Shown here in pieces: positions 1 to 5,065 of a DNA stretch of 49,079 bases. The position numbers and the translations under genes were made by a program. Below the pieces are notes generated by a model. It was not told where the DNA came from. It worked only from the letters and a program-made list of their open reading frames with translations, and searched no databases. Origin of the DNA: Streptosporangium minutum (GTDB taxonomy: Bacteria; Actinomycetota; Actinomycetes; Streptosporangiales; Streptosporangiaceae); NCBI RefSeq assembly GCF_002149035.1, contig NZ_NGFP01000036.1, positions 1 to 49,079 of the forward strand, in the 5' to 3' direction. Position 1 is the first letter of the stretch. Each line of letters begins with the position of its first letter.

Positions 1-807
1 GTCCGGGGGCGGAGGGGCGGGAGGCTCGCGTCCGGACGGGGCGGAAGGCGGCAGCGTGCCGCTCAGCGACAGCAGGGAGGCCAGCCGCCGGTCCTTCATC
101 CGGCCCAGGCCGTACAGGGCGACCCCGGCGAGCTCGTACTCCTCCCTGGAGGTGTGATCCCGCGTGCGCGGCGGCAGAGCCCCCTCCTCGCGGTGGCGCA
201 GGCGATAGTGGGCCAGCGCGGCCTGTCCCAGGCGCGTGGGCTCGGCCCGCGCGCCGTCGCCGGTGACGGCCAGTCCCAGCTCCTCCAGGCGGCCGGTCAG
301 CGCGGCGACCGCGGGGCCGCGGACAACCGCCGCCTTGACCTCCCAGACCGGCGGGCCGTCGCTCCCGGCCCCGAGCAGGGCGAGGACCTCGGCCTCCAGC
401 GGATGCGGGGAGCGTTCCGGAACTCCTCCGGCCCCCAACGACTCCGGCGGCCGCTCCGGGACCCCCGCCTCCAGCGGCTCCGGCGGCTGTTCCCCGATCT
501 CGGCCTCCAGCGGATGCGGGGAGCGTTCCGGAATCCCCGCCTCCAGCGGCTCCGGCGACCGCTCCGGCCCGGGACCCGCCGGGGTCAGCCGCCCGTCGCG
601 CGAGGCCCTGAGAGCCCCTCTGGCGGCCAGGGAGGCCAGGACGGTGTTCGCCACCCGGAACCGGCCGCCCGCCAGCTGAGCCAGCTCGTAGGGGTCCAGG
701 GCGGGCCCTCGGTAGATCTTGGGGGAGTGCATGGCCAGCCTCAGCGCGACCAGACCGGCCACCGTCACCAGTGCGACCGTCATGACGACGATCAGAGTGG
801 TCAGCAT
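1..807 (-). CDS. TIGR04222-like membrane protein, C-terminus cut by window edge
   Basis: The reading frame is open from an ATG at 807 to base 1 with no stop, so the C-terminus is missing. A GGAGG sits 5 bases before the ATG. The first ~25 residues form one membrane segment, followed by 'PYELAQLAGG' and 'RVANTVLASLAARGAL', which align with 'PYELAYLSGG' and 'RVVNTALGVLARGGAI' of the protein at 2187-3155; a later 'VALYGLGRMKD' matches 'VALYGLGELGD'. The two are therefore paralogues. Residues ~82-140 are tandem Pro/Glu-rich repeats (units such as 'ERSPHPLEAE'), absent from the paralogue. The end visible here is Pro-rich rather than Cys/Gly-rich. It is the last gene of an operon with a DUF692 enzyme, 28 bases after its neighbour. 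Function unknown; family assignment is by resemblance. Confidence 0.75.
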   Translation of the reverse strand, partial: MLTTLIVVMTVALVTVAGLVALRLAMHSPKIYRGPALDPYELAQLAGGRFRVANTVLASLAARGALRASRDGRLTPAGPGPERSPEPLEAGIPERSPHPLEAEIGEQPPEPLEAGVPERPPESLGAGGVPERSPHPLEAEVLALLGAGSDGPPVWEVKAAVVRGPAVAALTGRLEELGLAVTGDGARAEPTRLGQAALAHYRLRHREEGALPPRTRDHTSREEYELAGVALYGLGRMKDRRLASLLSLSGTLPPSAPSGREPPAPPPPD

Positions 808-835
808 GACGACCTCCGCCCCCGAGAAGGTGCCC

Positions 836-1345
836 TCACCCAGTCGGACGAACGGCGCCCGAGAGAAGTTTCACGACCCTCCGGAAGGGCCGGAGCCATC
901 GGGAGGCCCCGGCGGCCGTCTCCGGCTCCGGCGGCAGCCGTCCCGCCGCCCTGAGCCGGTCAGCGAAGTCCCGGGCGTCGGCGCGGGAGCCGCCGGGCGG
1001 CTTGGGACGGCCCCGCGCGTAGGCCTCGAACTCCCGCGCGAAGTCACCGCCGAGCAGTGCGACCAGGTCGGGCCGGACCCGGGCCACCGTCCCGCGCCGC
1101 TTGGAGATCAGGCTGGCGGCCTGGATCCGCAGCCGCCCCTCGTCGAACCCCGGGGGCGCCTCACCGCCCGCGACCAGAGCGGCCAGCAGTACGGCCTGCG
1201 CGCCCGCCAACGCCTCCCGCGCACCGGCCGGCACGTCCCCCGCGCCGTCCAGGACGCTCCCGCCCGCAGCCGCGTCCCGCGCGCCGGGCGGCGTCTCCCG
1301 GGCGTGGTCGTCGGACACGGGCCGTCGCCCCACGGATTCAGACAC
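836..1345 (-). CDS. Putative partner protein of the DUF692 enzyme (HvfC/BufC-like or SCO6045-C-like)
   Basis: A ~169-residue protein whose likely GTG start at 1345 overlaps the end of the DUF692 gene by 8 bases (other GTGs at 1333 and 1318 are possible). After an Ala/Gly-rich leader it carries '[14 protein letters not shown]', then '[13 protein letters not shown]' and 'YARGRP'. This order (Arg-rich helix, L-x-G-x-x-F, then a P-containing turn) resembles the N-terminal domain of HvfC/BufC-type partners that work with DUF692 enzymes, and I recall a similar C-terminal extension fused to DUF692 in some Streptomyces proteins (SCO6045-like). Translational overlap implies a fixed ratio with the enzyme. 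A substrate-recognition or partner role is inference; no catalytic motif is visible. Confidence 0.7.
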
Positions 1346-2150
1346 GGGCCATCGCGCCGCGGACGCGGCCGAGCTCCGCTTCGAGCGCGGCGTCGCTGGG
1401 ATAGTCGTCGTCCCATTCGAGCAGCACACCGGGCGGGTCGACCCGGGCGCAGAGCTCGGACAGGATGTCCAGCACCTCGCCGGGGACGTGGGCGGTGTGG
1501 GTGTCGTGCCAGACCCCGTGATGGGAGTGCCCTCCGGCGACGTGCACGTAGGCGAGCTCGGACAGCGGCAGGCCGTCCAGCGCGCCGGTGGCCGACAGGC
1601 CCAGGTTGACCTGGTTGGTGTAGAGGTTGGCCACGTCGACCAGGAGCCCGACCCCGGTCATCTCCACCAGCTCGCCGAGGAACTGCGCCTCGGTCATCTC
1701 GTCCTCCGGCCAGCCGAACAGGGCCGCCACGTTCTCCAGGGCCAGCGGGACGGGCAGCGCCGCCTGCGCCCGCCGTACGTTCGCGGCGACCACCGAGAGC
1801 GCGGCCCGGGTGCGCGGGACCGGGAGCAGGTGACCGGCCTCCATGCCGCCGGCGCGCACGAAGGCCAGGTGCTCGCTGACCAGCGGCGCGTCCAGGGCCT
1901 GCGCGCAGGCCGCCAGGTGCGCCAGCCGGGCCGGGTCCGGCGGCTCCGCGCCGCCCACGCCCAGCCCGACCCCGTGCGGGATCACCGGCACCCCGCGGGC
2001 GCGGAGCACCCGCAGCGACTCGGGGAGCCGCTCGGGGCGCACGTTCTCGGCGACTACCTCGACGAAGTCCACGCCGGGCAGGCGCTCGACCGTCAGGTCG
2101 ATCTCCGGGCGCCAGCCGATGCCCACGCCCAGCGACCCGGATCCGGCCAT
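1338..2150 (-). CDS. DUF692 (MNIO-type) non-heme iron enzyme
   Basis: A ~270-residue TIM-barrel protein of the DUF692 family, now called MNIO (multinuclear non-heme iron oxidative) enzymes; characterised members (MbnB, TglH, bufferin enzymes) modify cysteines in ribosomal peptides together with a partner protein. Counting from the GTG at 2156, family-type metal ligands are visible: H61 in 'IPHGVGL', H96 in 'SEHLAF', E141 in 'ALENVA', D174 in 'DVANLYTN', H205/H210 in 'YVHVAGGH', D218/H220 in 'HDTH', and E247 in 'LLEWDDD'. Start is ATG 2150 or GTG 2156; a GGAGG lies 10 or 4 bases before them. It is the second gene of the operon, 30 bases after a membrane protein with a Cys-rich tail and overlapping its putative partner. 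Family assignment is firm; the substrate is inferred. Confidence 0.9.
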
Positions 2151-2186
2151 CGTCACGCCACCTCCCCGCTCACCGCGGCGGACCGC

Positions 2187-3155
2187 TCAGCCGCCGCCAC
2201 CGCATCCCCCTCCGCAGCCGCCACCGCCGCAGCTCGACCCGCCGCCCGAGTCTCCTCCGCCCGAGTCTCCTCCGCCCCAGCCGCCGGAGCCGAAGTCTCC
2301 GCCACCGCCATAGGAGGCGTCCGAACCGGAGGAGCCTCCTCCGCAGGAGCCGCCGGCGCAACCGGCGTTCTGCGTACTGCTCCGCTTCAGCTCCTCCTCC
2401 AGGCCCGGGTCGCCCAGCTCGCCGAGGCCGTACAGGGCCACCGGGACGGCGACGGCGAAGGCCAGGTCCGGGGCCATCGGGCGGGCACCGCGCACATGGA
2501 CCCTGCGGGCGGAGGCGAGCACGTCGTGGCCCGCCTTGCTGAGAAGCCCGCGCAGCGCGCGCCTCTGCCTGAAGTAGGTGACCAGGCCGACGGCCACGGT
2601 GAGGAAGCCGATCAACACCGCGGCCGCGCCGTAGAACCCCCGGACGGGGACGGCCAGGAAGGCGCCGATCACGAAGACGACGGAGAGCAGCGTCAGCAGC
2701 AGCAGCCGGCTCAGCAGCCGCGTGGCCCCGGTGAGCGCGCCGTCGGGCACCAGCAGGCCCATGCCCAGCAGGCGGTAGCGCAGGCCGCTCATGGCCTGGC
2801 CGTCGGCCGTCGTACGGCGCAGCTCCCCCACGGAGCAGGAGTTGCCCCGGGCGCGCAGGGCGTCGAGGACGGCCTGCTCGATCGGCTCGGGGGAAGGCGG
2901 GGCTCCGAGCACGAGGCTGACCTGGCCGCCCCGGGACACCCGGATGGCCCCGCCCCTGGCCAGCACGCCGAGGGCGGTGTTGACCACCCGCAGCGGCCCG
3001 CCGGACAGGTAGGCGAGCTCGTAGGGGGTCGGCTGCGCGCCGTGATGGCCGGCCGCGGCCGAGCGGACCCGGCGGTGCTCGCCGCGTAGCGCCGCGGCCG
3101 TGAGGTTGACCACGAGCGCGAGGACGAGGGCTGTGACGAACAGTACGGATTCCAT
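2187..3155 (-). CDS. TIGR04222 domain membrane protein with Cys/Gly-rich tail
   Basis: A 322-residue protein starting at ATG 3155 behind a GGAGG 5 bases away; the frame extends further upstream but without a ribosome site. Residues 1-20 ('MESVLFVTALVLALVVN') are a membrane segment, followed by the 'PYELAYLSGG...RVVNTAL' block, a winged-helix-like cytoplasmic region, two further membrane helices around residues 140-190, and 'VALYGLGELGDPGLEEEL'. The last 64 residues are low complexity, almost only Gly, Ser, Asp and Cys, with five cysteines (266, 271, 309, 314, 318) and the terminus 'CGGGGCGGGCGGGG'. It is the first gene of the operon with the DUF692 enzyme, so its tail is the obvious candidate substrate. 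TIGR04222 membership is by recognition; biochemical function is unknown. Confidence 0.85.
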   Translation of the reverse strand: MESVLFVTALVLALVVNLTAAALRGEHRRVRSAAAGHHGAQPTPYELAYLSGGPLRVVNTALGVLARGGAIRVSRGGQVSLVLGAPPSPEPIEQAVLDALRARGNSCSVGELRRTTADGQAMSGLRYRLLGMGLLVPDGALTGATRLLSRLLLLTLLSVVFVIGAFLAVPVRGFYGAAAVLIGFLTVAVGLVTYFRQRRALRGLLSKAGHDVLASARRVHVRGARPMAPDLAFAVAVPVALYGLGELGDPGLEEELKRSSTQNAGCAGGSCGGGSSGSDASYGGGGDFGSGGWGGGDSGGGDSGGGSSCGGGGCGGGCGGGG

Positions 3156-3241
3156 GTCCGCCTCCGGGGGGGAAGGCGGGGCGTGTGCCCCGTTGTCATG
3201 TAGACGCACGGGGCCGCACGGAAGTTGCAGCTGTCAGTGCC

Positions 3242-5065
3242 TCAGTTCGGGCGAGTGCCGGAGTCCTGGTTCAGACGGTCGACCAGCGCCTCGTACTCCT
3301 CCCAGAGCTCCTTGGGGAAGTGGTCGCCGAAGGTCTCGAAGAAGGCCGGGATCAGTGACGCCTCCTCCTTCCACACCTCCCTGTCCACGCTCAGCAGGGT
3401 CCGCAGGTCCTCGTCGGAGATGTCGAGGCCGTCGGTGTCGAGCTCGGCGGGGAGCAGGCCGATCGGCGTCCGCACCGCCTCGGCCTCGCCGTTGAGACGG
3501 TCGACGACCCACTTGAGCACGCGGCTGTTCTCCCCGAAGCCGGGCCAGATGAATGCGCCGTCGTCGTTCTTGCGGAACCAGTTCACGTAGTAGATGCGCG
3601 GCAGCCGGACGTCCTCACGCTGGCCGACCTTGATCCAGTGGGCGAAGTAGTCGCCCATGTTGTATCCGCAGAACGGCAGCATCGCGAACGGGTCGCGGCG
3701 CAGCTCGCCGACCTTGCCCTCGGCGGCGGCGGTCTTCTCCGAGGCGATGTTGGCCCCGGTGAAGACACCGTGCTGCCAGCTCAGCGACTCGGTCACCAGG
3801 GGGACCGCGGTGGCGCGGCGTCCGCCGAACAGGATCGCCGAGATCGGCACGCCCCTGGGGTCCTGCCACTCGGGGGCGATCGTCGGGCACTGCGCGGCGG
3901 GCACCGCGAAGCGGGCGTTGGGGTGCGCGGCGGGCTCCTGGCTGTCCGGGGTCCAGGAGCGGCCCTTCCAGTCGGTCAGGTGTGCCGGGGGCTGGTCGGT
4001 GAGCCCCTCCCACCACACGTCGCCGTCGTCGGTGAGCGCGACGTTGGTGAAGATGCTGTTGCCCCAGAGCGTCTTGATCGCGTTGGCGTTGGTGGACTCG
4101 CCGGTGCCGGGCGCCACGCCGAAGAAGCCGGCCTCGGGGTTGATGGCGTACAGACGGCCGTCGGCTCCGAAACGCATCCAGGCGATGTCGTCGCCGACCG
4201 TCTCGACCTTCCATCCCGGGATGGTCGGCTGGAGCATGGCCAGGTTGGTCTTGCCGCAGGCGCTCGGGAACGCCGCCGCGACGTAGCGGGTCTCCCCGGA
4301 CGGCGGGGTGAGCTTGAGGATGAGCATGTGCTCGGCCAGCCAGCCCTCGTCGCGGGCCATCGTGCTGGCGATGCGCAGCGCGTAGCACTTCTTGCCGAGC
4401 AGCGCGTTGCCGCCGTAGCCCGAGCCGTAGGACCAGATCTCCCGCGTCTCGGGGAAGTGGCTGATGTATTTGGTGGGGTTGCACGGCCACGGCACGTCGG
4501 CCTGGCCCTGCTCCAGCGGGGAGCCTACCGAGTGGACGGCCTTGACGTAGCCGCCGCGCTCCTCGATGAGCCGCAGCGCCCGCTCGCCCATGCGCGTCAT
4601 GACGCGCATGGAGACGACCACGTACGGCGAGTCGGTGATCTCGACGCCGAGCTGGGAGATGTCGCCGCCCAGCGGGCCCATGCAGAAGGGCACGACGTAC
4701 ATGGTGCGGCCGCGCATGCTGCCCCTGAAGATCTCGCCGAAGGTCCGGCGCATCTCGGCGGGGGCGATCCAGTTGTTGGTCGGACCGGCGTCCTCTTCGC
4801 GCTCGGAGCAGATGTACGTGCGGTCCTCGACGCGGGCGACGTCACTCGGGTCCGAGGCGGCGTAGAAGCTGTTCTGCCGTTTGGCCAGGCGCTTGAATGT
4901 TCCCTGCTTCACCAGCAGGTTCGTCAGGCGTGTCCACTCGGCCTCCGAGCCGTCGCACCATTCGATCCGGTCGGGCTGAGTCAGCTCGGCGATCTCCTTG
5001 ACCCATGCGGCCAGCTCCGGGTGGCTGGTCGGGCTGGGGGCGGTTACGTCTGCGATAACGGACAC
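3242..5065 (-). CDS. pckG: Phosphoenolpyruvate carboxykinase (GTP)
   Basis: Converts oxaloacetate and GTP to phosphoenolpyruvate, GDP and CO2, the entry step of gluconeogenesis; cytoplasmic. The 607-residue protein has the usual length of the GTP-dependent family. Visible motifs are the oxaloacetate/substrate region '[15 protein letters not shown]' near residue 213, the P-loop '[12 protein letters not shown]' at 266-277 with the reactive cysteine C270, and the metal-binding 'VGDDIAWM' at 290-297. The start is GTG 5065 with AAGGAG about 10 bases before it. The gene is monocistronic: its upstream 290-base spacer is AT-rich compared with its neighbours and holds three candidate GntR/DasR-type operators. 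Identification is very secure. Confidence 0.97.

Follow-up and report, generated by a model that had tools for sequence, protein, structure and literature searches.

MNIO enzymes (DUF692) that act on cysteines of their substrates are the closest described relatives of the system treated here. For MbnB and HvfB, the literature describes an action on Cys residues of the substrate; HvfA has six such residues at its C-terminus, and the Cys of its EGKCG repeats becomes 5-thiooxazole (PMC13419390). Nearest of all is the work of Antoine et al. 2025 (Microb Genom, PMC12452194), which describes TIGR04222-MNIO clusters with PME-type 2 partners and a Gly/Ser/Cys tail, and proposes that a subset of the TIGR04222 membrane proteins is modified by MNIO. 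There the tail is placed in the periplasm and the association is loose, 490 of 1372 genomes being without MNIO. The present analysis concerns a cassette of this kind in Streptosporangium minutum, at the start of contig NZ_NGFP01000036.1 (assembly GCF_002149035.1). The whole contig, 49,079 nucleotides, forms the window (G000:C290 in our surveys). The cassette is real and conserved, and of a candidate type already in print. We give a probability of roughly 0.6 to the reading that it makes a membrane-tethered, post-translationally modified Cys tail, by the mechanism set out below. The locus has the following features.

2187..3155, minus strand: TIGR04222 membrane protein A, 322 residues from the ATG at 3155 (NCBIfam TIGR04222)
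2190..2369, minus strand: DNA of the Cys tail (residues 263-322 of protein A), pattern CAGGSC ... SSCGGGGCGGGCGGGG; presumed modification site
1338..2156, minus strand: MNIO enzyme (DUF692, PF05114), 272 residues
836..1345, minus strand: MNIO partner protein, 169 residues from the GTG at 1345, overlapping the MNIO gene by 8 bases
1..807, minus strand: second TIGR04222 protein, B (NCBIfam TIGR04222, 85.6 bits, cut-off 43), last residues lost at the contig end

A preliminary description of this DNA had named the first three genes. They lie where it placed them, all on the minus strand, with five Cys in the Gly/Ser tail of protein A, and the start and stop codons bear out the 8-base overlap of the partner gene with the MNIO gene. 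The fourth gene of the locus, that of protein B, stood outside this three-gene set and is cut at position 1 by the end of the contig. Protein A belongs to TIGR04222 (143.4 bits, cut-off 43) and could also start upstream, at a GTG at 3209, which would give 340 residues; the enzyme belongs to Pfam PF05114 (266.1 bits, gathering cut-off 25). The preliminary description had further held that the arrangement has no described product. As to the product this stands, since neither a product nor a modification of a TIGR04222-MNIO cassette is reported in the open-licence papers searched. As to the arrangement it does not: both arrangement and hypothesis are printed in Antoine et al. 2025 (PMC12452194) and are therefore not new.

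The cassette is not a product of chance: Cys is enriched in the tail, and the gene set recurs across loci. Searched with the MNIO, the named genomes yielded 142 relatives; the analysis covers the best 80 of these loci. In 75 of the 80, a complete TIGR04222 gene lies at most 4 kb from the MNIO gene, and every one of these 75 loci has at least one such protein with at least two Cys in its last 70 residues (at least three in 74). Of the other five loci, four run into the end of a contig, and L100 is a true exception. The TIGR04222 gene is upstream of the MNIO gene in 72 loci and only downstream in three. A partner, separate or fused to the enzyme, is found in 78 loci, the remaining two being cut; MNIO-partner fusions occur in Plantactinospora, Mycolicibacterium, Mycobacterium and Kutzneria loci and in six further genomes. 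The tails were compared in an alignment of 95 of 99 non-redundant TIGR04222 proteins and that of the window. Across the 95 homologous tails, Cys makes up 9.2% of the tail and 0.29% of the remaining protein, and Gly directly follows the tail Cys in 394 of 469 cases. Only three of the 95 tails have no Cys, a share that is slightly low because four proteins were left out by hand: L134:3422, L134:4258 and L139:3077, with 0 or 1 Cys at the end, and the Cys-rich L140:3368. The Gly/Ser tails of DUF2207 proteins served as a control. None of the 24 correctly read proteins has a Cys in its last 60 residues (27 loci less three for which the reading frame was wrong), and the DUF2207-like L151 and L160 have one Cys each in the last 90 residues, ahead of the Gly/Ser end.

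At the level of whole genomes the link between tail and enzyme is close. Surveys for TIGR04222 and PF05114 covered 61, 198 and 246 genomes, partly overlapping, and gave 110 TIGR04222 rows over the cut-off in 86 genomes, with four contig-end fragments (in G073 and G088) left out. Among the genomes with a Cys-tailed TIGR04222 protein, 47 of 48 also encode an MNIO, against 13 of the 38 that have Cys-less TIGR04222 only (p 4e-11, not corrected for kinship). In the sole exception, G323, a distance of 510 bp separates the start of the domain hit from the end of the contig, and an MNIO would be expected on that side. The rule behind these counts is slightly looser than the gene-level rule and includes incomplete rows. 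G418, with a Ser-rich end and no Gly tail, was set aside by hand and would bring the fraction to 47/49; G289 was counted in, its Cys lying before the very end and its MNIO match being partial. Among complete proteins, the gene-level Cys-tail rule, which misses G028:C7 with its three tail Cys, holds for 45 of 60 that are linked to an MNIO and for 7 of 45 that are not (p 1e-9), one of the seven being the ambiguous G418. Taken together, these counts are suggestive of Cys tails tracking MNIO, and the co-occurrence that the preliminary description had proposed to survey is thus present.

The ligand positions of the enzyme are intact. In an alignment of all 24 MNIO sequences with that of the window (25 in total), nine positions are invariant: H61, H96, E141, D174, N177, H205, D218, H220 and E247. 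The positions that align with the iron ligands of MNIO enzymes, whose metal ligands the preliminary description had called intact, are among these. Profile searches match TglH (8hci, 1e-35), 3bww (1e-35) and MbnB (1e-11), and the ligand positions align with those of TglH and 3bww. In HvfB, N175, D242 and H244 are essential (PMC13419390). By our reading of the alignment, these would correspond to N177, D218 and H220 here. Further iron ligands are presumed among the other invariant positions. The nearest named relative among the matches listed is the MNIO of Streptosporangium subroseum, with 94% identity. In a quick tree of 55 rows, a branch with an SH-aLRT of 98 separates the TIGR04222-linked and fused MNIOs from the other sampled actinobacterial MNIOs, the latter side having long branches. 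The best-scoring NCBIfam MNIO model is BufB, at 191 bits, below its equivalog cut-off of 310. The equivalogs HvfB (141.7 bits of 360), ApyH (120.8 of 400), ChrH (58.2 of 600) and MbnB (37.4 of 325) were rejected likewise.

The partner adjoins the MNIO and is without the DUF2063 signature, which makes it a partner of PME-type 2. No Pfam or NCBIfam family was hit at E 1 with the open reading frame 836-1429, nor a Pfam family with the 169-residue form; DUF2063 is weakly matched in 7 of the 52 aligned members (51 of 53 partners and that of the window, L069 and L105 being left out). The AlphaFold2 model (mean predicted local distance difference test, pLDDT, 79.2) has a four-helix core, tentatively like that of DUF2063 partners such as NGO1945 and TglI, no modelled RiPP recognition element (RRE; RiPP, ribosomally synthesized and post-translationally modified peptide) and a basic, Trp-containing C-terminal helix. 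The top VIA-align rows for this model are the MNIO-partner chains MbnC and TglI, at low Z, and the partner profile against PDB sequences gave two chance-level rows only. Past the core, 32 of the 46 members that are long enough have a Trp and a net charge of at least +3, while a Trp and a net charge of at least +4 are found in the last 25 residues of 30 of 52 partners and 0 of 25 MNIOs. Judged from these sequences, a C-terminal peptide rich in Trp and Arg is frequent among the partners.

The anatomy of protein A was derived from an AlphaFold2 model (pLDDT 83.8; predicted template modelling score 0.76), from hydropathy and from counts of Lys and Arg in 96 aligned proteins. Membrane helices are predicted at about 2-25 (2-33 in the model), 142-168 and 174-202, with a soluble domain resembling a winged helix-turn-helix at 44-131, further helices at 207-262 and a disordered Gly/Ser/Cys tail at about 263-322. 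With regard to a cleavable Sec signal peptide, positive charge comes after the first hydrophobic segment, which has the look of a membrane anchor. Lys and Arg average 0.35 before this segment and 3.60 after it, and 0.32 within the hairpin of the second and third segments against 5.17 past the third. A fourth hydrophobic stretch has a best 19-residue mean of 1.05, much as the soluble domain has, against 2.1-2.2, and its helix in the model has 12 residues. Profile comparison, used as a superfamily test, finds a winged-helix domain common to TIGR04222, DUF2207_C and GPP34, and it is supported, at the level of profiles and models, that the TIGR04222 soluble domain belongs with DUF2207_C/GPP34. The C-terminal part of TIGR04222 alone gives no link to DUF2207 (3.6%) or GPP34 (0.2%) in such a comparison, DUF2207 and GPP34 compared directly give 0.4%, and a Foldseek search of the protein A model against the PDB gives nothing at E 0.001 or better. 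The VIA list for the model holds many long-helix bundles with a Z equal to or above that of the GOLPH3 rows (up to 11.2); because these crowd the list, the GOLPH3 rows are usable only together with the profile comparison. In a crude hydropathy scan, DUF2207 proteins have an N-terminal signal-like segment, an ectodomain, a membrane segment, the winged helix, a pair of membrane segments and a tail; exactly four hydrophobic segments are found in 14 of 28 DUF2207 reading frames, the rest having more or fewer.

Protein B adds to this picture. Aligned with protein A and with its counterpart in S. subroseum, it has no Cys and is without the second and third membrane segments. The winged-helix domain and the C-terminal helices are kept, and the core of the fourth hydrophobic segment survives despite the missing pair. 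Because of the three membrane helices, the positive-inside bias, the DUF2207_C homology and this hairpin-less paralogue, the Cys tail is probably cytoplasmic, and not periplasmic as published. As a separate observation, the gene of protein B carries about five 36-base repeats (array 384-567) between its conserved parts, and the S. subroseum counterpart is without the array. The middle paralogues of Saccharothrix and Umezawaea (L122:2448-3377, L133:3112-4044, L137:3245-4159) have no tail Cys either; they have an Arg-rich stretch followed by a Trp-rich hydrophobic end.

As to the surroundings, the cassette lies directly downstream of a phosphoenolpyruvate carboxykinase gene (window 3242-5065; Pfam PEPCK_GTP). 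This neighbour recurs in 52 of the 80 loci, so that the cassette holds a fixed chromosomal place in its group. Neighbour families are gene clusters across the 80 loci, with one or two members of each named by Pfam. They include a PhoH-like protein (49 loci), undecaprenyl diphosphate synthase (32), a sensor kinase (32), an NlpC/P60 gene at 3-4.7 kb (30), an MFS transporter (9) and three families that match nothing in Pfam (42, 25 and 23). A SelR-domain (methionine sulfoxide reductase) gene is found in 14 loci, for example L127:1248-1682, and a large gene for a subtilase, present once or twice per locus, in nine (Saccharothrix, Umezawaea and kin; for example L130:6813-10091), where it is a possible candidate for a processing protease. 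Most of the 80 loci have neither an exporter nor a processing protease alongside the cassette. A PADLOC search gave no defence system at E 0.01. A scan of window 1-3600 for sigma-70 promoters and terminators found none and is uninformative at this GC content.

Several observations weigh against an in-place modification of the tail as read here. Among them are the 13 genomes with an MNIO and Cys-less TIGR04222 only. Eleven of the 13 are of a single genus (g62) and keep the enzyme with only tail-less TIGR04222; since g62 neighbours Kitasatospora in the tree of MNIOs, it is probably Streptomyces. In two more genomes of this genus, G083 and G253, MNIO and partner are fused and TIGR04222 has no match. 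Conversely, seven of the 45 unlinked TIGR04222 proteins pass the Cys-tail rule. Independent-pair tests on the tree are not significant with their three supported pairs, and the strength of the association therefore rests on few evolutionary events. Tail Cys vary in number and spacing, so that conservation of the tail concerns its type and not its sequence. A loose hydropathy threshold for a fourth membrane segment is passed by 15 of the 96 aligned members, and some DUF2207 proteins have a further hydrophobic segment after the membrane pair. Matches to the fold of the partner are weak, Foldseek against the PDB giving none at E 0.001 or better. The subtilase and MFS genes leave room for processing or export at the loci where they occur. 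Finally, since the enzyme scores below all of the BufB, HvfB, ApyH, ChrH and MbnB equivalog cut-offs, its chemistry cannot be named.

Some further observations were made in the genus g62. Three of its genomes (G188, G221, G242) have an MNIO-partner fusion beside tail-less TIGR04222. Around the fusions of L249-L254, a PTH2-like gene lies near five and a DUF4142-like gene near four (Pfam identified one gene of each kind, and the rest were assigned by similarity); three have a tail-less TIGR04222 and two have no TIGR04222. SCO6045, a presumed Streptomyces relative with one row in an RNA-seq table (PMC4991794), is left out of account.

On balance, the in-place modification of the Cys tail, as put forward in the preliminary description, is the best-supported reading and comes through the survey, with the 13 genomes just mentioned as its blemish. 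The analysis bears out the gene content and its conservation, the enzyme family with its ligand positions, the link between Cys tail and MNIO and the natural fusions, and it supports, from sequence and models, the three-helix topology and the fold. Protein A would have its N-terminus outside, and its winged-helix domain, of the DUF2207_C/GPP34 kind, and its Gly/Ser/Cys tail in the cytoplasm. The partner would bind the MNIO through its DUF2063-like core, and its Trp/Arg-rich C-terminal peptide may hold the enzyme at the inner face of the membrane. With an iron cluster and O2, the MNIO would then oxidize the tail Cys in place, most likely to heterocycles of the 5-thiooxazole type. The tail would remain attached, and its likeliest use is to bind a metal, copper or some other, on the cytoplasmic side. 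Inference extends to the tail as substrate, to the kind of chemistry, to what the partner C-terminus does at the membrane and to the metal function; thiooxazole-type chemistry and metal binding are extrapolated by analogy with bufferins and oxazolins. A bolder version, less probable but still to be reckoned with, takes the Cys-tailed TIGR04222 proteins, GPP34/DUF2207-like in kind, for RiPP-like proteins that stay unreleased. The MNIO would convert the cytoplasmic tail to a row of thiooxazole-type metal ligands at the inner face of the membrane, the partner, its recognition domain lost, would dock the enzyme there by its Trp/Arg-rich peptide, and the tail would act as a fixed metal buffer or sensor on the cytoplasmic side.

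Among the alternatives, the one that survives best, though improbable, is that the tail binds metal as plain thiols and that the target of the MNIO lies elsewhere, in a different molecule or in some other part of the TIGR04222 proteins; the linkage would then reflect a shared pathway, such as metal or redox stress. This would also explain why the enzyme is kept with tail-less TIGR04222, and the SelR-domain gene near 14 of the 80 cassettes fits it, but nearly every Cys-tailed genome (47/48) has an MNIO, and MbnB and HvfB are described as enzymes that work on the Cys of their substrates (PMC13419390). Slightly less probable again is the view of Antoine et al. 2025 that the tail is extracytoplasmic, which would have it modified before translocation and then working outside like a bufferin. 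It is founded on a topology prediction of the membrane segments and finds a parallel in the bufferins, which work in the periplasm (PMC12452194). Some of the 15 members above the loose threshold could indeed have a fourth pass. The positive-inside pattern, the 12-residue fourth helix, the homology to DUF2207_C and the core of this segment that paralogue B keeps without the membrane pair speak for a tail on the cytoplasmic side.

A conventional RiPP, with the tail cut off and released as a peptide metallophore, appears quite unlikely. Bufferins, oxazolins and methanobactins are peptides (PMC12452194, PMC13419390), and subtilase (9/80), NlpC/P60 (30/80) and MFS transporter (9/80) genes do occur nearby; each is nevertheless absent from the cassette in most loci, and no fixed boundary motif is visible in the tails. 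A released peptide is therefore disfavoured in general, less so where the subtilase occurs. That the tail Cys are a meaningless by-product of GC-rich Gly/Ser low complexity can practically be dismissed: TGC is one base off GGC (Gly) and AGC (Ser), but the 24 DUF2207 tails are free of Cys, the tail differs sharply from the body in Cys content, and 38 of the 45 unlinked TIGR04222 proteins fail the Cys-tail rule.

If the in-place modification of a cytoplasmic Cys tail is correct, MNIO chemistry reaches beyond secreted peptides, and bacteria rewrite the end of a resident membrane protein. The modification would occur on the enzyme's own side of the membrane, which removes the export puzzle of the periplasmic model, and a protein family that is so far only a TIGR number would have a mapped starting point.

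The comparison with known systems places the cassette among these relatives as follows. Bufferins (Buf1/Buf2, BufB, BufC) resemble it in that an MNIO and a partner act on Cys, BufB being also the best NCBIfam model for the enzyme. In contrast, their precursors have Sec signal peptides and their partners are of the DUF2063-RRE type (PMC12452194), whereas protein A, the presumed substrate here, is integral to the membrane and no RRE shows in the model of its partner. The oxazolin system (HvfA/HvfB/HvfC) likewise needs a partner, and the tail Cys here, mostly followed by Gly, recall its repeats (PMC13419390); HvfA, however, is a secreted repeat peptide, and the MNIO of the window reaches 141.7 bits against the HvfB cut-off of 360. 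DUF2207 (YciQ-like) proteins share with protein A the winged-helix domain and the Gly/Ser tail end and differ in their N-terminal ectodomain and in having no tail Cys in the 24 proteins read. GPP34 proteins, which we take to be soluble, are unlike the membrane protein A in this respect. Finally, the clusters of Antoine et al. (PMC12452194) have the same three gene families, a Cys tail, a mostly actinomycetotal distribution and the same proposed substrate. They part from our analysis at two points: the tail looks cytoplasmic here, and the link to MNIO is tight once the Cys-tailed proteins are separated from the others. To the printed work, the analysis adds a revised topology, a superfamily assignment by fold, a tighter connection of Cys tails with the enzyme and the observations on the C-terminus of the partner.

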